The notes under the pieces: generated by a model
Told to the model about the DNA's origin: nothing
The model's input: the letters and a program-made list of their open reading frames with translations, nothing else
Database searches by the model: none
Translations under genes and position numbers: made by a program
Shown: in pieces, positions 4,023 to 30,587 of the stretch
Position numbering within the stretch: the first letter of the stretch is position 1
How the letters are laid out: the number at the start of each line of letters is the position of its first letter
From: a virus
IMG/VR virus record: IMGVR_UViG_3300031277_000011
Span: 1-39,036 of that record
Direction: 5' to 3' (one strand)
Length of the DNA: 39,036 bases

Positions 4023-5075
4023 TTATATTTTCTCCCAATTCTCTTGTTTGGAAGGATCACCACCTTTAAACCTGTAACCATCCTCTACCATTCCTGGTTG
4101 TGGCCCTTCTGCTGCTTCTGCACTAGGCAAAAGTGCTTCACCTACTGCGCCAGCACCCTTGTCAATAGCACCTGCGATACCTGGTTCATCTGTCATATTT
4201 TTTGACCCTGGAACTTTTGATTTTACTTCGTTAATAATATCATCAGCGCTTTTTCTATAATTAGAACTAACAAAACCAGAAAGAGTCCCGCCAGCACTGT
4301 TCCAGTATTTGATCGCCTCATCTTTTGCTTTTAACTGATCTAACAATACATCTTTTAATGCTATCGCTCTTTCTTTGTTTACTTCTATTGGAAGACTAAA
4401 ATCAAATGTCTGTTGTACAATTGTTTGTCCTTCTTTTTCTGTGAACTGAGCGCCCAATATAGGTCTTAGAGTTTCTACTACGGTTCTAGCTATATTTTGA
4501 CCTGCTGCTCTTGTCTTAGGCGTAAATAATGCACTTGTTGTATCAAATGTTTGAGCCATACCTGTAAATGGGCCAGTCACAACATCACCTTTATCCATCT
4601 TGCCAATTACTTTGTCTAAAGAGTTAATTTTAGACTTAATGCCTGAGAATCCACCAGCAGCATTATATAGCGATACGTCTTTGCCAAAAGTAACATCAAT
4701 AGCCTCTTGCCCCTTTGTCAGCTTGGGCGGTTTTCTCATTTCTTTTGCTTTATCATATTGTGCTTTCAGTCCTATTAATTTCTTTTGTTTTTCAAAATCC
4801 CTATCCTCTTTGTTTTGTCCTAACTGTAAACCCTGAACTGTCTTGTATTTGTTAAGTAATTCTTTTCTTCTATCTGCAATATTCTGCATCTCCATAGTTG
4901 ATGGTGTTGTAAAAGCTTTTTCTATCCCCTTTCTACCCTCTTTTCCGGTTATCAAAGGGGAAATTATACCAGAAATGGTTTGACCGGTATAATATTTGTC
5001 CTGGGCTGCCATCTTTTTGGCTTCGTCTTGTTCTTTTAGCTTCTCTAGTGCTTTCATCTCTGTTTTATAGTCCAT
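4023..5075 (-). CDS. Internal virion / ejection protein (350 aa)
   Basis: A 350-residue, mostly helical protein. It begins with a Lys/Glu-rich coiled coil (MDYKTEMKALEKLKEQDEAK) and has a central conserved-looking block (ARTVVETLRPILGAQFTEKE, then QQTFDFSLP). The C-terminus has an Ala/Gly linker and ends in DGYRFKGGDPSKQENWEKI-like residues, a tail I associate with podovirus ejection proteins. It abuts the 717-residue gene and follows two Gln-rich genes, the usual order of internal proteins that travel with DNA through a short tail. No enzyme motif is seen. Confidence 0.65.
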   Translation of the reverse strand: MDYKTEMKALEKLKEQDEAKKMAAQDKYYTGQTISGIISPLITGKEGRKGIEKAFTTPSTMEMQNIADRRKELLNKYKTVQGLQLGQNKEDRDFEKQKKLIGLKAQYDKAKEMRKPPKLTKGQEAIDVTFGKDVSLYNAAGGFSGIKSKINSLDKVIGKMDKGDVVTGPFTGMAQTFDTTSALFTPKTRAAGQNIARTVVETLRPILGAQFTEKEGQTIVQQTFDFSLPIEVNKERAIALKDVLLDQLKAKDEAIKYWNSAGGTLSGFVSSNYRKSADDIINEVKSKVPGSKNMTDEPGIAGAIDKGAGAVGEALLPSAEAAEGPQPGMVEDGYRFKGGDPSKQENWEKI

Positions 5076-8228: not shown

Positions 8229-10999
8229 CTGTCCTTATTTCTCCCTTCACTTATACTCTCAAAATCTATTCCCAAACCCGATAAAGCCACTTGCCTACGT
8301 GATGACAAATGCCGTACCTTTACATAAATAATAGTAGCTTGTGAATGCTCTTTAGTAGACCATGTTAAAAACTTGTCATTCTGGTTAAAAGCTCCCCATA
8401 TCTCGCCCCATACCAAACCCCAGTAATTAGTAGGTAATTCAGTCATGGCTATTTCTAAAGGAGTTGGAGACTTATCTGTTCTTACATCTATATTAATATT
8501 TTCAATACTTGTCTCTTCGCCGTCAAATTGTAAAATAATCTGCTTAATAAACTTCTCAACAAAAGGACTACCGCAATGTATCGGATTATATTCTAATTCA
8601 GATACGATCCCGGGTATAATCGTACAAGCTGCAATAGCCAAGTTATTAACATTATTTAAAACATAGTGAGTTGTATCAACTACTTCTATGATTATTTTAT
8701 TATATATGTTAGGGCCTACTATCTGAGATAAGATACTCTCTGCTGGTATTGTAATTGCCGTATTTAACGTAACAGTATTTGTTATTGCGTCAATAGCCGT
8801 TATATTATTAGTTATATCCGGAGTACAATGATCATTTGCCGTAAAAGATTTTCTCTCCTGGTATACAGTACGTCCTACAACCCCGAATGTATATTCCCTG
8901 CTACCAACGATAATACCACAACCAATGTTACCATCATTTGTATATATTCCATGCTCGCTGTCTCTCCAACTTTGATTGAATGTATTATATACTTTTACAA
9001 TATCTTTTGCAGCGGAATTTTCATCAAGCATAGTCGCGTGTTTATAACTCTTTTCATCCTCATAAAACCACCCAAACCCATTAGTCTCATAATCGACATT
9101 CAATATCGGTTTTAAATCTTGATATTCGTTGTCTCTTCCTATAACCTCAACGCCTGAGTTTGAAATCTTTACATATCCTAAATTACTCATCATAAATATG
9201 GCATTTTGCCCTTTGTCAATACTGTCTGCTTGTAAACATCTAACCGTTCCGTCAAATTCATCAACATTCCATGGCGGTGCATCGCCTGTCAACTGATAAA
9301 CACCCTCTGTCTCCTTTATGAAAAATACAGAGTCTCTCAACCCTATAACCCTTAATATCCTGTCATTACTTGACCCTACATAACCTATATTAACAAGCGG
9401 TACTGCTTCTTGTTCATTAGATTTACTCCACATATAGGCATTAACAAGCCTATCATTCGTTGAAATATACGTTGTTCCTGCCGTTGGTATTATCGGGCTG
9501 AAATTACTACCGGTTGCATCTGAGTTTACCGTAACACTAAAAGCAACATCTCTTAATGTCCTATTTGTAAACATCATCTTACCCGGAGGGTCATCAACAT
9601 TACTTACAATATATCCGTATAAATAAGTATTTGCCGTCGTCTGGTTTAAACATCTTACAATACTCCTTGCAGTGGCATCTATATTTAAAGCTGTTGTTGC
9701 AAGTGCTGTATATAATATAAACCTCGGTGTTGCTCCTATGTCCTCATATCTATCGACATTTCCCCCGCCTGTCCAAGCATTAGCGTAGGCAGACCCTACA
9801 AGATCAATATCATTCGGGTTGATAACTGTAACTTCCCATACTCCGTTAGCTTCAACCGTACCGGTTACATCTGTAATTCTGCAATAGTCTCCTGTGGTTA
9901 AACCATGACCTGCACCTACTGAAACACGAATTAAACCTGCTGCATTTGCTGTTCCTGTGACGGCCCCCCCGGTTACAGGAGCATAACACCCCATAGTAAA
10001 CGGACTTACTCCGTCTGTAATAGTCAAACTTGACACACCCGCTGTCAAGTTAGTTACACTTATTAAAGCAGTATATAACCTATGTAAGTTGTTAATATTT
10101 GCATAAAAATTAAACGTCTTATATTTATCAATAGATCTAGCAAGAGGCGGTACATCGTTTGATTGGTTAATTCCCTCTCGCGTTGTATTAGTATATAAAT
10201 ACGCATCCCTGAAATCTGTAGGAGTAATGTCATCAATTAACATATATCCATTAACAATGTCTGCAGCAGTAGGATTTATCTGATAAACTAATTGCTCGTT
10301 TTCCGGTTGTGATACTGCTCCGTTTGTCGTCCTGTATAATTCTAATAAATGGTCTGTCGTAATGCCATCCGGAATATATATCCTTAATTCAACCGCAGCT
10401 ACACCTACCGCACCATTTTGTATCTCTTGCCTTTCACTTGGTGCACCTACGTTCTTCTTATTATTCGCATCTGTATATGACCACACATGACGGTATGCGA
10501 CATATTCGTTAATAGGTAACCATGTTCCTGCTACCGGAAACGTCACCCTTATGTCACAACCTAAACCTTTAGGAATGCCTGCAGCATAAAAATCCCCTGC
10601 ATAGGCGTCTAGTTTTAATATGCCATCATCTGTAGTAATATATAAATTATTGTTATTCTCTAACCACCCCATACTATATCCTGCAGGAGGTGTAAAAGCT
10701 GTACCGGCTGCTATGTCTGTCGCTTGAATGAAATCCCCAGGAGTACCCGTATCATCGTAATATATGGTATTATTAGCATAGTGAAGATATAAAACATCCT
10801 GATACTTCATTGGCATATCTACTGTTGAATTAGGCAATGTCGTATCGTTACTATAAGTATCTCTTCCCCTGGGTTTTCTATAGGTATTATCCCGTACGGT
10901 CTCCCAGTTTTTGACAATCCTGCATGACCCTTTAGGTTGACTCATAGGGTTTGCATGTGTCTTTTTGCCTATAACTTCATTAAAGATAGGATAGATCAT
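8225..10999 (-). CDS. Tail tubular B-like / nozzle protein (924 aa)
   Basis: A 924-residue beta-rich protein. The N-terminus (IGKKTHANPMSQPKGSCRIV, NWETVRDNTYRKPRG) reads like podovirus tail-nozzle proteins, which begin by covering a list of coordinates and parameters, though I assign this by context more than motif. Residues about 360-415 hold a GHGLTTGDYCRITDVTG ... NGVWEVTVINPNDIDLVGSA module, a beta fold widespread in phage tail proteins. The gene lies between the adaptor and the collar fibre with four-base overlaps on both sides. It probably forms the distal tube of a short tail. Confidence 0.7.
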   Translation of the reverse strand: MIYPIFNEVIGKKTHANPMSQPKGSCRIVKNWETVRDNTYRKPRGRDTYSNDTTLPNSTVDMPMKYQDVLYLHYANNTIYYDDTGTPGDFIQATDIAAGTAFTPPAGYSMGWLENNNNLYITTDDGILKLDAYAGDFYAAGIPKGLGCDIRVTFPVAGTWLPINEYVAYRHVWSYTDANNKKNVGAPSERQEIQNGAVGVAAVELRIYIPDGITTDHLLELYRTTNGAVSQPENEQLVYQINPTAADIVNGYMLIDDITPTDFRDAYLYTNTTREGINQSNDVPPLARSIDKYKTFNFYANINNLHRLYTALISVTNLTAGVSSLTITDGVSPFTMGCYAPVTGGAVTGTANAAGLIRVSVGAGHGLTTGDYCRITDVTGTVEANGVWEVTVINPNDIDLVGSAYANAWTGGGNVDRYEDIGATPRFILYTALATTALNIDATARSIVRCLNQTTANTYLYGYIVSNVDDPPGKMMFTNRTLRDVAFSVTVNSDATGSNFSPIIPTAGTTYISTNDRLVNAYMWSKSNEQEAVPLVNIGYVGSSNDRILRVIGLRDSVFFIKETEGVYQLTGDAPPWNVDEFDGTVRCLQADSIDKGQNAIFMMSNLGYVKISNSGVEVIGRDNEYQDLKPILNVDYETNGFGWFYEDEKSYKHATMLDENSAAKDIVKVYNTFNQSWRDSEHGIYTNDGNIGCGIIVGSREYTFGVVGRTVYQERKSFTANDHCTPDITNNITAIDAITNTVTLNTAITIPAESILSQIVGPNIYNKIIIEVVDTTHYVLNNVNNLAIAACTIIPGIVSELEYNPIHCGSPFVEKFIKQIILQFDGEETSIENINIDVRTDKSPTPLEIAMTELPTNYWGLVWGEIWGAFNQNDKFLTWSTKEHSQATIIYVKVRHLSSRRQVALSGLGIDFESISEGRNKDR

Positions 11000-24767: not shown

Positions 24768-24817
24768 ACGTTCTGTGAGACGTTTTTTGCTCAAGGTATA
24801 CTAGGATACCATTTTTT
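24768..24817 (+). terminator. Two tandem terminator hairpins after the plus operon
   Basis: The first is ACGTTCT / AGACGT (24768-24783, one bulge) followed by TTTTTT. The second is GGTAT (24795-24799) / ATACC (24806-24810) followed by ATTTTTT to 24817. Together they end the plus operon against the convergent minus gene, whose stop codon shares the last T-run. Confidence 0.7.
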
Positions 24818-25049
24818 AATTAAAACCCCTCAGAATTGAAATCACGGCTTCTGAGCTATGATATAATTCAACCCTTTGCGCTGCAAGTATCGCATCACAC
24901 AATTTGCACTTACAAATAACCATCGTGCCATCAAAGTACGGTTCGTCTGCTTTGCAATGATCGCACCCGTTTTTAGAGAAATCATATTTAATACTTTGTA
25001 TTTCTCTGAGAACCCGGGAGATATTATTTACTTTTTCTAGTGTTTCCAT
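24816..25049 (-). CDS. Zinc-binding small regulator-like protein, leaderless (77 aa)
   Basis: A 77-residue product with four cysteines in two close pairs, CDHC (29-32) and CKLC-like residues at about 48-52, forming a likely treble-clef/zinc ribbon; the flanks are helical (METLEKVNNISRVLREIQSI; EAVISILRGFN). No ribosome site is present; ATG 25049 falls six bases after a -10, as with three other genes. It is the only gene between the plus operon and the origin-like region, downstream of a terminator. A role in regulation or in replication control is inferred. Confidence 0.65.
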   Translation of the reverse strand: METLEKVNNISRVLREIQSIKYDFSKNGCDHCKADEPYFDGTMVICKCKLCDAILAAQRVELYHSSEAVISILRGFN

Positions 25050-25084: not shown

Positions 25085-25114
25085 TAAAAAAGCCCCCAGC
25101 TTATCCAGGGGCTT
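25085..25114 (-). terminator. Terminator at the left border of the origin-like region
   Basis: AAGCCCC (25090-25096) pairs with GGGGCTT (25108-25114), loop of 11. On the minus strand a run of T follows (25089-25085 complement), so it stops leftward transcription from the replication module just before the 77-residue gene's promoter. A weaker T-rich tail also exists on the plus strand. Confidence 0.75.
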
Positions 25115-25549
25115 AAACTTTTTGTTTTCTCGATGGGAATGGAGTATCAAAAATGTCTCACTTAAATATTAATATCAAAACTTACTAAACTTGTCAATCC
25201 ATAAAATAAATATTTCAAGCCCAATATTTTTGTATGCAATATTTATGCCAATCAACCCTAAAAATGTCTCATGACGGATATGACGCATTTTAACCGTTTT
25301 CCCTATTCCTTCTATATATTATATTTTTAACGTATTTTTTGTTATTTTTTTTATATTTATATTTTAATTTTATATCCGTCATAAGAGTCAGTATAATATA
25401 AATATATAATATCATTAAAAAAGTTCCTGACTCTTACCTGACGCTTCCTGACGCATTCTGACGGATACTTTTTACATACTATATAAAATTTTACTAAACT
25501 TTTTACAATCATGATTATTAAGGAATTATTAATGCGTCAGGATGTGTCA
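25115..25549. other. Candidate replication origin with TGAC iteron-like repeats
   Basis: Gene-free, AT-rich, 435 bases, next to the primase/helicase gene. TGACGGATA occurs at 25272-25280 and 25459-25467 and inverted at 25373-25381. TGACGCAT occurs at 25281-25288 and 25449-25456 and inverted at 25532-25539. CTGACTCTTA (25427-25436) is inverted at 25382-25391. In 25427-25462, CTGAC starts at 25427, 25438, 25448 and 25458, that is every 10-11 bases, one face of the helix. AAAAATGTCTCA repeats at 25149-25160 and 25260-25271. A very AT-rich block (about 25310-25370) separates the clusters and could unwind. I see no coding frame here. Confidence 0.75.
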
Positions 25550-27877
25550 TTAAAAAATTTCTTTAAGGACATATCCCCTTGTGTTTTCAGTACGTTTAAA
25601 CTCTAATCTATCTCGAAAATATGAATATGCAGTTGATTTAAAATCTCTTGAAAATTTAGTATAACTCTTTTGTTTCCTTCCAACATCTCTACACCAATCT
25701 TTGTATTTATCATACAATACTTTTGTTTCGATAAAATCCTGTTCGGATTCAAAGGCGTTTAACTCTAATTCATTAATAAATACATATATAGGGTTATTAA
25801 GCTCTCTGAACTCCTCTCTTACTTCTTCTTCATCATTAATACTAGTAAACTTTTTTTCTTTTAAAAGCCGTCTGTATCCATCATAGGCCCAATTGAATAT
25901 TGCTGGTAACTCTGGAAGTATCTTTTCTGTAATATATGGATCTGCTTCCTTTTCATTGTCAAAAATAGGTTTCTCGCAAAACTTTACAGGAAATTTAATA
26001 AATATTATTCTCCGGTCAAGTCCATGTGATATATCATTGGACCTTAGATAATTATTTGATGCCATTATCATTTTGGCCCTTGATTTAAAAGTAACAAAGT
26101 CTAATCCCTTATAACAAGCATTAATATAATCACCTGTTACTATTTGCTTAAATATCTGTGATGCTTGATTAACTTCCGTATTAGTTTCAGAACTTATATT
26201 AACCATAGAATTAATTAAACTAATCCTTTGAAATGGTTCAGAAAGACAACTCATTTCAATAGCTGTAATATTTTCAAGTCCGCACATATAACTTAATATA
26301 TCTAATAACTTTGACTTACCGTCTGACCCTTCACCCATTAAGATAAAACATTTTTGCAAACTACAATCATTAAATAATACATACCCGAACATCTCTTGAA
26401 TAAGGTTTATCTTTTGCGTATCGTTCATTGTTATATCTTGTAAAAACTTCTGCCATTTATCAGAATATAAAGAAGGAATGTAATTATAATCTAATTGAAT
26501 TGATGTATTATATGACGGATCGTGTTTGATAAATTCTCCTGTCTCTATTAACAATAAACCGTTTTTAAAATTAATAACAGGCTCTTGATTAAATATCTTA
26601 GTTGTAACAGTTTCTATTGATAATAAATTAGTAATTGCATTAACCTTGTTACTTGTAGAATAATAACCTAATTCCTTTTTAATCTTACTTTTGATTTCTT
26701 CCTTTTCTTTTTTCTGCCAGTAACCATCTTGATACTCATAAAAGCCTAACTGTGGATGATATTTTATATTATATTTATTCTTTATTTCTTCTGTTATATA
26801 ATATTCTGTTGGAGGTGATAAAGCTTGTTTCTTAAGTTCGTTCAACCATGCTTTCGGATATTTCTCTTTTACCTTTTCAAATATCAAGACTAAATCAGTC
26901 TTACTAATGAATCTACCTATCTTTTTGATTACTTTTTTAAATTCTGCCTGGTCTTGGGTTTTCTCACAAATATATTGTATTCCATCTATTTTGTTTTGCA
27001 TAAAGTTTAAATGTGAGTTCTTAATATAATATTCGTTTATATCCTTTGCATGCTCTGGAATTGCTACATTAAACTTGATTCTATTACTTAAAAATATACT
27101 TGCCAGTTTTAAATTAAAAGACTGGCCCGCTTCGTCTGCATCAAAACAGATTATAATATCATCATGGTTTTTACATATCTGTATAAGATTCTTTAATTGA
27201 GCTTTTGAAAAATGACCGCCCATACTAGATAATACAGAATAACCCTCTTGATATGCTGATATTGCATCAAACACCCCTTCGGTAATAACTAAAGGCTTAT
27301 TAATATCTAATGTATTAAGGCCCCAAATTATATTTTCATTTAATCCATCTTTTTTGGGTTTAAAATATTTTGGATCTTGATTATTATAAGCTCTACCAAT
27401 CCAGTAAGCTACATAACTATTTTTAAAATATGGTACGATTATACGACCTTTATTATATCCTATTTTAAGTTTATTAATTGTTTCTTCTGTTATTTTTCTG
27501 TCTTGTAAATATGTATAATGTTCTTGTTCTAACTGTTTATGCCATTTCTGAATAGTATTACAAAGATTTTGTGTATAGTCTTTCCAGATTTCATATTCTT
27601 GCGTATTGGAAGATATATTTAATAAAAACTTTAATTCTTTTAATGCTCCTGCCTTATCGCCACCATGATTAACTTGGGCAGATAAGTCAATCACGTCACC
27701 ACCTTTAAGAGTTTTATAATCATACCAGCAATCATCATTAATAACTAAACAGGTCTTGTTAGAGCCTTTATCTAAAGAATAAGTCCTATCACCTGACTTG
27801 TTAATATCCCAGCCTAATTGCTTTGCGTATTGTATGCATGTAATTTGATTTTTTATTTCTTGAAAAATGTCAGACAT
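25550..27877 (-). CDS. Primase-helicase: TOPRIM plus SF3 (D5-like) helicase (775 aa)
   Basis: The main replication enzyme. Residues 1-90 look like a degenerate CHC2 region (DYKTLKGGDVIDLSAQVNHG) without the full zinc set. About 195-280 is a TOPRIM domain: VITEGVFDAISAYQEG and IIICFDADEAGQS. About 440-670 is an SF3 helicase: a D5-N-like segment ending in CFILMGEGSDGKSKLLDILS (Walker A GEGSDGKS, near 515), an acidic strand with INSMVNISSET, then KMIMASNNYLRSND and GLDRRIIFIKFP, the arginine-finger region. It should prime and unwind phage DNA. No polymerase gene is present, so host polymerase probably extends. A promoter and structured leader precede the gene. Confidence 0.88.
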   Translation of the reverse strand: MSDIFQEIKNQITCIQYAKQLGWDINKSGDRTYSLDKGSNKTCLVINDDCWYDYKTLKGGDVIDLSAQVNHGGDKAGALKELKFLLNISSNTQEYEIWKDYTQNLCNTIQKWHKQLEQEHYTYLQDRKITEETINKLKIGYNKGRIIVPYFKNSYVAYWIGRAYNNQDPKYFKPKKDGLNENIIWGLNTLDINKPLVITEGVFDAISAYQEGYSVLSSMGGHFSKAQLKNLIQICKNHDDIIICFDADEAGQSFNLKLASIFLSNRIKFNVAIPEHAKDINEYYIKNSHLNFMQNKIDGIQYICEKTQDQAEFKKVIKKIGRFISKTDLVLIFEKVKEKYPKAWLNELKKQALSPPTEYYITEEIKNKYNIKYHPQLGFYEYQDGYWQKKEKEEIKSKIKKELGYYSTSNKVNAITNLLSIETVTTKIFNQEPVINFKNGLLLIETGEFIKHDPSYNTSIQLDYNYIPSLYSDKWQKFLQDITMNDTQKINLIQEMFGYVLFNDCSLQKCFILMGEGSDGKSKLLDILSYMCGLENITAIEMSCLSEPFQRISLINSMVNISSETNTEVNQASQIFKQIVTGDYINACYKGLDFVTFKSRAKMIMASNNYLRSNDISHGLDRRIIFIKFPVKFCEKPIFDNEKEADPYITEKILPELPAIFNWAYDGYRRLLKEKKFTSINDEEEVREEFRELNNPIYVFINELELNAFESEQDFIETKVLYDKYKDWCRDVGRKQKSYTKFSRDFKSTAYSYFRDRLEFKRTENTRGYVLKEIF

Positions 27878-28023: not shown

Positions 28024-28197
28024 ACGATATAATTTATACTTCTTTTGTGCTAAGAAATTAAACGCTTGATACTGTTTGTTGAATGTAACTCTGATAGTTT
28101 CCCCTGTATGGTCTTTACGCTCTATAACTGTTTTGTCTTTAATCGGAAACATTACAACATCGTACTTATTATTAGTATAATATCTTGTTATAGACAT
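28009..28197 (-). CDS. Small hypothetical protein (62 aa)
   Basis: A 62-residue product, MSITRYYTNNKYDVVMFPIK ... ending KKYKLYRLTLD. Alternating hydrophobic and charged strands (TVIERKDHTGETIRVTFNKQ) suggest a small beta-barrel or Tudor-like fold. It overlaps the stop of the dimer-glycosylase gene and hosts the next promoter. Not recognised. Confidence 0.55.
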   Translation of the reverse strand: MSITRYYTNNKYDVVMFPIKDKTVIERKDHTGETIRVTFNKQYQAFNFLAQKKYKLYRLTLD

Positions 28198-28492
28198 CTA
28201 AACACTCCTTGCATTTATCAAAACTATTCATTAGTTCTTTTTCTTTTTCTGTAAGATAATTTATATCAGGTTGTTCATAAGAACTATTGTGGTTATATCC
28301 TCTTGAAAGCATTTCTTTTGAAAGTAAATCATGGCGTTGTTTCATTTGTGATGGTTTAATTTGTCCTAACTGTATTCGTTTATTCATGTTATGTTTTTTT
28401 ATAAAATTATGTCTGAATTTATGAATTTCTCCATGTTCGCCTAGTAAGTGTTTTCTACACATAGTTTTTGGATCATTATTAAACATTCTCAC
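28172..28492 (-). CDS. Pyrimidine-dimer DNA glycosylase, DenV-type (106 aa)
   Basis: Repairs UV damage at pyrimidine dimers. The N-terminus MRMFNNDPKTMCRKHLLGEH followed by GEIHKF fits the endonuclease-V/pyrimidine-dimer glycosylase family (T4 DenV type); Glu in GEHGE is the likely catalytic acid, and the N-terminal amine region is the expected nucleophile site. MKQRHDLLSKEMLSRGYNHN continues the family pattern. The start is GTG at 28492, one base shared with the VRR-NUC stop, and the RMF start fits the family better than the ATG two codons later. It is 106 residues, shorter than T4 DenV (138). Its place in the replication operon suits repair of incoming DNA. Confidence 0.75.
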   Translation of the reverse strand: MRMFNNDPKTMCRKHLLGEHGEIHKFRHNFIKKHNMNKRIQLGQIKPSQMKQRHDLLSKEMLSRGYNHNSSYEQPDINYLTEKEKELMNSFDKCKECLDVYNKILY

Positions 28493-29624: not shown

Positions 29625-30293
29625 TTATAAAATTAAATCTTCTACTTTACAATAAATACGCTTATCGTACCTATCTTTTGCGTCAATTTCTTCTGTTTTG
29701 TCAAGCCGGATATATCTTTCTCCTGCTGTTTCTTCTTTTTCTGAAATTTCTACATGACCAACTAAGCCACAAATACCCATAATATATTCTGGGGTTTTTC
29801 CAGAAAGTAAAGGCATAACTCTATTAAATTTAGTTCCGTTCTTTTTAATTATTTCCTCTTTTCTCTCCCATGCTGTAATTATAATATTAGCTGGCAAATC
29901 AATTAGTCTATTAAAATAATCAGCAAGTTTAAAACCAGTTCTACTATAATGTAGCATTTCAGGTGCTCCGTCATTCCTTCCACTTCTACCATACAATGTA
30001 AGCATTTTCTTTTCTAATGTAGAAATACTGTCAAGACAAATGTTATCATAAGGGCATTTTTTTTCTAAATCTTCAAAAACATTCTTTAGGTCACTTAGAT
30101 CTTTTTCAAGTGTCCAGATTTCTATGTTTTTATTTTTTTTATCAAGAACATAAGCCCCTTCGTCAACATCTATAATTAACGTTTTTCCTTTCAGCTTTCC
30201 TATAGCTGTTGTTTTTCCCGTTCCGGGAGAACCGTATAACAAAATAACTTTCTTTTTATCCTTTATATCAGATAAGTTGAATTTTTTAACCAT
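29625..30293 (-). CDS. RecA-like ATPase, AAA_24/Sak4-type (222 aa)
   Basis: A 222-residue ATPase: Walker A GSPGTGKTT (about residues 21-29), Walker B NICLDSIS (about 85-92), and downstream strand IIITAWERKEE with GTKFNRVMPLLSGKTPEYIM, typical of the AAA_24/Sak4 group of phage recombinases that act with SSB. The start is ATG 30293 behind AAAGGAGTTGAGGG. It lies just after the small regulator and before the SSB-like gene. It likely anneals or pairs single strands to restart replication. Confidence 0.85.
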   Translation of the reverse strand: MVKKFNLSDIKDKKKVILLYGSPGTGKTTAIGKLKGKTLIIDVDEGAYVLDKKNKNIEIWTLEKDLSDLKNVFEDLEKKCPYDNICLDSISTLEKKMLTLYGRSGRNDGAPEMLHYSRTGFKLADYFNRLIDLPANIIITAWERKEEIIKKNGTKFNRVMPLLSGKTPEYIMGICGLVGHVEISEKEETAGERYIRLDKTEEIDAKDRYDKRIYCKVEDLIL

Positions 30294-30296
30294 CCC

Positions 30297-30458
30297 TCAA
30301 CTCCTCTTTTCATCATTTAAAAACAAGTCTACAAGATATTCTAAAACATCTTGCTGTTTATGTCCTTGTCTTTTACATTTTTGTTTAAGTAACCTCTTTT
30401 TAGTTTTAGGTAGCCTAAAACTAATACCAACTTTTTTTTCTTTTTTGAGTATCTTCAT
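30297..30458 (-). CDS. Small basic ribbon-helix-helix-like regulator, leaderless (53 aa)
   Basis: MKILKKEKKVGISFRLPKTK ... then QQDVLEYLVDLFLNDEKRS: a basic strand (VGISFRLPKTK) followed by helices fits the ribbon-helix-helix type. The chosen start ATG 30458 lies six bases behind a -10 (TATAAA), like other leaderless genes here; an upstream ATG at 30485 and a TTG at 30497 are less well placed. The gene heads the replication module. An auto-regulatory repressor role is inferred. Confidence 0.65.
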   Translation of the reverse strand: MKILKKEKKVGISFRLPKTKKRLLKQKCKRQGHKQQDVLEYLVDLFLNDEKRS

Positions 30459-30464
30459 ATTTAC

Positions 30465-30493
30465 TTTATATATAGATAAATTCATAAATGCAA
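30465..30493 (-). promoter_or_regulatory. Replication-module promoter, leaderless type
   Basis: Minus strand TTGCAT (30493-30488), 17 bases, TATAAA (30470-30465), six bases to ATG 30458. The -35 is weaker than in the other two minus examples, but the geometry is identical. It would drive the regulator and the genes down to primase. Confidence 0.6.
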
Positions 30494-30527
30494 GCAAAAA
30501 TAATATTTTTTTTTATATAAAAAAAGA

Positions 30528-30556
30528 TTGCAATATATTGTTTTATAATTTAATAT
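30528..30556 (+). promoter_or_regulatory. Promoter for the accessory plus-strand gene run
   Basis: TTGCAA (30528-30533), 17 bases, TAATAT (30551-30556), about 30 bases before ATG 30588. This is the only convincing start signal for the long run of plus genes, and it lies 35 bases from the opposing leftward promoter, in a very AT-rich spot, so the two may be co-regulated. Confidence 0.65.
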
Positions 30557-30587
30557 GTTTTTATAAAATTTAAACATGGGGGTGTTT

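Follow-up and report, generated by a model that had tools for sequence, protein, structure and literature searches.

The window analysed here, an IMG/VR viral record of 39,036 bases, contains an array of TGAC iterons (25272-25549), ten in number and grouped in four clusters, located directly 3' of the stop codon of the gene encoding a primase-helicase (P0001). The array is very probably the phage replication origin, of the P4/SaPI type, with P0001 as a self-loading helicase initiator. Since all the features of this type that could be tested are present in the window, the array is read as origin and P0001 as its initiator. The kind of origin is known already, and what appears to be new is a code in related primase-helicases that links one residue of the wing to the iteron sequence. 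This apparent single-residue iteron code of the wider family is the most interesting result.

Organization of the iteron array

Cluster A (25532..25549, minus strand) follows immediately after the primase-helicase stop codon and contains two TGAC 10 bases apart, read as GTCA at 25536 and 25546. It is separated by an AT-rich spacer (25468..25531, 84% AT) from cluster B (25427..25467, plus strand), which contains four CTGAC words at 25427, 25438, 25448 and 25458, with spacings of 11, 10 and 10 bases. A second spacer (25391..25425, 91% AT) leads to cluster C (CTGACTCTTATGACGGATA; 25373..25391, minus strand), with two copies 9 bases apart, and a third one (25291..25372), whose core is about 85% AT, to cluster D (TGACGGATA TGACGCAT; 25272..25290, plus strand), with two direct copies 9 bases apart. 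The third spacer is a candidate unwinding region. On the primase strand and from the stop codon, the order is two TGAC, 73 bases, four GTCA, 37 bases, two TGAC, a spacer of 93 bases and two GTCA, and the cluster-spacer-cluster unit appears to be present twice. The iteron spacing within clusters is 9-11 bases, and six of the ten sites show the core GTCAG. The word TGACGGATA is found at 25272(+), 25373(-) and 25459(+) and nowhere else in the window, TGACGCAT at 25281(+), 25449(+) and 25532(-), and CTGACTCTTA at 25427(+) and 25382(-). All the words and positions of the original prediction were recovered, as was the AT-rich DNA between clusters, with spacers of 81-91% AT in two measurements; from 25313 onwards the array includes the most GC-poor 60 bases found anywhere in the 39 kb (5% GC).

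Ten copies of TGAC are present between 25260 and 25549, where 1.1 would be expected from dinucleotide shuffles (maximum of 6 in 2000), and the octamers TGACGGAT and TGACGCAT occur three times each, against 0.006 and 0.002 expected under dinucleotide shuffling. The density of TGAC is the highest of the whole 39 kb, and the array holds 6 of the 11 phased same-strand TGAC pairs of the window. The extent first proposed, 25115-25549, does contain the array, but the iterons are limited to 25272-25549; the fragment 25115-25271 shows one stray GTCA and nothing else of the array. The distal boundary is a terminator-like hairpin (25090..25114, minus strand), which in the direction of the primase gene comes after the array and divides the array unit from the gene of a zinc-ribbon-like protein. 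The array had also been described as abutting the primase/helicase, and it is indeed adjacent, at the 3' end of the gene and not upstream of it. GC skew, one of the checks proposed, follows gene orientation along the window and shifts at the gene-strand switch, not at the array, and is therefore uninformative on the origin here. A second very AT-rich stretch (30235-30570, minimum 24% GC over 435 bases) is located between divergent gene blocks; it lacks a TGAC array and is perhaps a divergent promoter region.

In phage P4 the alpha protein binds iterons at two sites, ori and crr, whereas one array is found in the window. The array might then bind the helicase as an incompatibility, copy-control or enhancer site similar to crr, without being the initiation point, and its two cluster-spacer-cluster repeats would suit such a role. 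We consider this improbable: no second TGAC array is present in the window, though the window may be an incomplete genome, and arrays of the SaPI type, when 3' of the initiator gene, act as origins (PMC7581432).

The primase-helicase and its genomic context

P0001 (775 aa; 25550..27877, minus strand), the proposed initiator, contains Toprim, D5_N, DUF5906 and Pox_D5 domains, all above the Pfam cut-offs. Its sequence matches the SaPI5 primase-helicase (7ola) with an E value of 3.5e-48, and the SaPI5 primase-helicase also gives the top Foldseek hits of the whole P0001 model. By its domains, sequence and fold, P0001 can be assigned to the hexameric-type D5/P4 helicases with primase. The C-terminal domain (residues 694-775; 25553..25798, minus strand) is the proposed iteron-binding domain, and the AlphaFold2 model of P0001 shows here a winged helix with wing strands at 753-758 and 761-767, the wing having a low pLDDT of about 50-65. 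The codon of wing residue E764 (25586-25588, minus strand) is homologous to the position that covaries with the iterons in relatives. The C-terminal domain of one of these relatives, L138, modelled in isolation with AlphaFold2, has a mean pLDDT of 83 and superimposes on the P4 origin-binding domain 1ka8 (Z 8.8, 2.0 Å, 74 residues) and on the DNA-bound RFX domain of the co-crystal 1dp7 (Z 11.9, 2.0 Å). The human protein hRFX1 reads DNA mainly through the wing; this would account for a wing residue following the iteron sequence. A published comparison likewise puts the domains of P4 and Rfx1 in one group (PMC10516667).

The genes encoding Sak4-like, SSB-like, VRR-NUC and pyrimidine-dimer glycosylase proteins are on the same strand as P0001; the last, a small protein encoded next to the replication genes (28172-28492), matches the pyrimidine dimer DNA glycosylase family (PF03013). 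Portal protein, major head protein and an amidase are also matched remotely in the record. On the other side of the hairpin, the Cys-rich zinc-ribbon-like protein of 77 aa (24816-25049) has a weak match to PF08274, below the curated cut-off, and a promoter-like match, TTGACA-17-TAATAT, is located immediately upstream of its gene (25084-25056, minus strand). No named phage matches the window in a DNA search. Direct searches with the window found a single relative, of 28% identity, among viral contigs and none among genome contigs. The closest relatives are only about 27-30% identical, and an alignment of all distant primases was discarded as a source of search patterns since the sequences are too diverged.

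Arrays beside the primases of distant relatives

Related loci were collected in two ways. An array-first search of viral contigs, blind to gene content, used three CTGAC words at 10 and 9 bases, and a second pattern used three CTGAC words at 10 and 10 bases; a gene-first search selected primases by protein pattern alone and included bacterial genomes, whose named hosts include Desulfovibrio, Desulfobacteraceae and other relatives of sulfate reducers. The two CTGAC patterns gave 227 array loci. A primase-like ORF is present in 14 of them, 10 of which have the array 20-513 bases 3' of the primase stop. Several of the primase loci found in this way show the same clusters of two to five copies in opposite orientations, and the arrays of L352, L257 and L111 are simpler or arranged otherwise.

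The primases of relatives are followed by phased arrays, typically of 9-12 sites, and phased TGAC pairs downstream of their stops number 2.4 on average, against 0.05 expected. The iteron core varies by lineage (GTCAG, GTCAA, GTCCG, GTCCA and others), and most loci without TGAC show another phased core, such as GTCCG, GTCCA, GTCGG, CACAGG or ATCCA. Arrays of the main clade follow a very regular plan, with mirror orientation and about 11 sites in total: three or two sites, a spacer of about 50 or 60 bases, two or three sites, about 78-103 bases, two sites, about 29, 50 or 60 bases, and three or four sites. The array of the window is unlike the main clade in both core orientation and layout. L034, L086 and L371 are nearer to its type, having a core orientation opposite to that of the main clade and a short cluster followed by 73-104 bases of AT-rich DNA and then three or four sites; the window array appears to be two units of this type.

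Loss of the repeats in relatives that keep the primase had been put forward as a refutation. Most main-clade loci retain the downstream array and a few do not: L136, L127 and L248 show none, the whole loci having been searched. No array was found in L002 within the fetched DNA. L152 shows none at the usual place and a complete GTCA array at 8348-8600, 2.4 kb beyond the primase stop, with the core predicted by the rule given below, so that array and primase gene can be separable. The CA-type words that a looser count gives in L127, L188 and L189 form no phased array and were left uncounted.

Among remote primases, no phased array with 9-12 bases of spacing is found in Oceanotoga UFV02, Vibrio 2.096.O or Pseudoalteromonas B8b, and in Oceanotoga UFV02, phiC31 and Rowa a polymerase gene is almost directly downstream of the primase, leaving little space for an array. 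Other remote homologues are followed by repeats with the cores GTTACC, ACGTAAC, GTAACGGT and TTGCGCA (L183:4063-4306, L377:3314-3677, L379:3617-3982 and L378:3233-3488); these loci belong to Streptococcus phages, a Halorubrum virus and an Alicyclobacillus plasmid.

Covariation of a wing residue with the iteron core

GTCA and GTCC cores are never found together in one locus. In the main clade, the wing residue at the position of P0001 residue 764 corresponds to the two bases after GTC: Y to CG, R to CA, P or A to AA, and N, Q, E, C, W or T to AG. On a tree of the primase protein minus its C-terminal domain, at least 13 changes separate GTCA from other cores, and in 8 independent, supported tree pairs 7.4 on average agree with the wing residue and 0 oppose it. 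The column of residue 764 ranks first of 672 with a gain of 0.514, followed by a column with 0.250. By simple mutual information over all sequences the same column is fifth, a measure that is confounded by clades, and for this reason paired-relative and tree-based tests were used.

The pairs for the column ranking were chosen after the pattern had been noticed, and a held-out test is therefore the stronger evidence. A two-state rule (GTCA or GTCC, with Y for GTCCG and R for GTCCA) was put on record before new loci were fetched, and the four-state code was recognised only afterwards. With near-duplicates excluded, ten independent new loci had an array that could be scored, and the call between GTCA and GTCC was right in every one (L187, L190, L201, L202, L208, L223, L237, L238, L245/L246 and L247/L253); seven of the ten would have been labelled wrongly from their nearest relative. 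The second base shows one miss, L190, which belongs to a distant clade and has R with GTCCG, and is ambiguous in L245/L246. The change can be seen between close proteins: L187 (R, GTCCA) and L137 (P, GTCAA) are 80% identical. In this pair, and in L144/L141, L115/L114 and L138/L139, iteron base and wing residue both differ, which makes the specificity directly testable in vitro.

The rule has exceptions outside the main clade, in distant lineages: R is found with GTCAG in L034 and L086, and R or N with GTCCG in L164-L174. L117 was first classed as GTCA; its near relatives point to CACA in the same register, which fits R with CA, a post hoc assignment. A relative of L086 (L373:5202-5802) has CGTCCC repeats downstream and Y in the wing, fitting Y with GTCC outside the main clade, and L156 shows, 3' of the primase stop at 5068, the core GAGCAA with a wing Q, the first half being changed and CAA retained. 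P0001 (E764, with GTCAG in 6 of 10 sites) and L061 (E, GTCAG) are both consistent with the code; the clade in which covariation was found excludes P0001, so the window fits the code without testing it. It is likely that one wing residue of an RFX-like winged helix is a readable code for origin iterons across a large family of phage primase-helicases, from which the origin can be predicted. Origin specificity has probably been switched repeatedly, a single protein position changing each time together with all of the approximately ten iterons, and such switches would make the origin sequence predictable from the protein sequence.

The covariation also bears on whether the array is an operator, where a phage repressor or regulator on the TGAC repeats would control transcription. 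Short, phased, direct and inverted repeats also suit cooperative repressors and the AT-rich DNA has promoter-like matches, but these are about as many as chance would give (7 against 6.4 expected), the unit is closed by the terminator-like hairpin, and in relatives the array comes after the primase gene and shows a covariation of its bases with the wing residue of the helicase itself, which a separate regulator would not produce; an operator is thus slightly less probable even than a crr-like site. Binding by the 77-residue zinc-ribbon protein, as initiator or accessory factor, was the alternative in the original prediction and is the least probable reading, for although it is Cys-rich and adjoins the array it has no homologue in any related array-bearing locus and the covariation implicates the helicase.

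Proposed mechanism

The proposal that the primase-helicase binds an iteron origin is, as far as computation goes, well supported by the conservation in relatives, by the covariation of protein and iterons and by the fold of the C-terminal domain, and from these we infer binding by P0001, unwinding, loading and origin function. Each TGAC iteron of about 10 bases would be bound by the C-terminal winged helix of P0001. The spacing of one helical turn would place neighbouring subunits on the same DNA face, so that helicase oligomers could assemble next to the AT-rich spacers, open them and load, and theta-type initiation with a host polymerase would follow. A phage without close relatives thus gains a defined candidate origin and initiator, and the comparison suggests how D5/P4-type helicases, common in phages, satellites and plasmids, choose their origins. 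If the code is true, origins and possibly replicon incompatibility would be predictable from sequence, and the joint change of an initiator and a whole array of about ten iterons makes an attractive example of coevolution between molecules.

Comparison with known replication systems

The features shared with the P4/SaPI type are iterons immediately 3' of the initiator gene, a position conserved in relatives; iterons flanking an AT-rich segment (spacers of 84-91% AT); a predicted C-terminal winged-helix DNA-binding domain; and an initiator specificity matched to its own iterons, indicated here by the covariation in relatives rather than in P0001. SaPI origins with Rep or PriRep have, as in the window, the array directly 3' of the initiator gene, and the helicases of SaPI and SCC elements bind, through their C-terminal domain, iterons immediately 3' of their own genes (PMC7581432). 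The SaPI initiator is homologous to P0001 in sequence and fold (7ola/7om0), and the comparison covers gene layout and initiator. In contrast, SaPI primases belong to the AEP family and that of P0001 is a Toprim, and SaPI elements are satellites whereas the window, a viral contig of 39 kb, carries genes for capsid and portal. The SCCmec helicase Cch2 is also of the D5 type, with its C-terminal domain on direct repeats directly 3' of the gene, but has only three AAGTG iterons and a separate primase (PMC7581432).

P4 alpha combines primase and helicase in a single chain and binds the origin through a C-terminal winged-helix domain, an organization that the model of P0001 appears to share; here the comparison covers protein architecture and fold. 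The Sfi21-like Streptococcus phages (YMC-2011, L183) encode a remote primase homologue (22.6% identity). Beyond its gene, AT-rich DNA is surrounded by GTTACC repeats, both inverted and direct, with a different core and tighter spacing that failed the phase test of 9-12 bases. The Sfi21 origin was reportedly located by Foley in 1998 at the corresponding position after the primase. The primase-helicase ORF904 of pRN1 also has an essential origin 3' of its gene, but this is a stem-loop of 100 nt with no iterons (PMC4234260). Finally, classical iteron-plasmid origins of the RepA/RepE type have a separate Rep and a DnaA box, whereas in the window the proposed initiator, encoded next to the iterons, is the primase-helicase itself.
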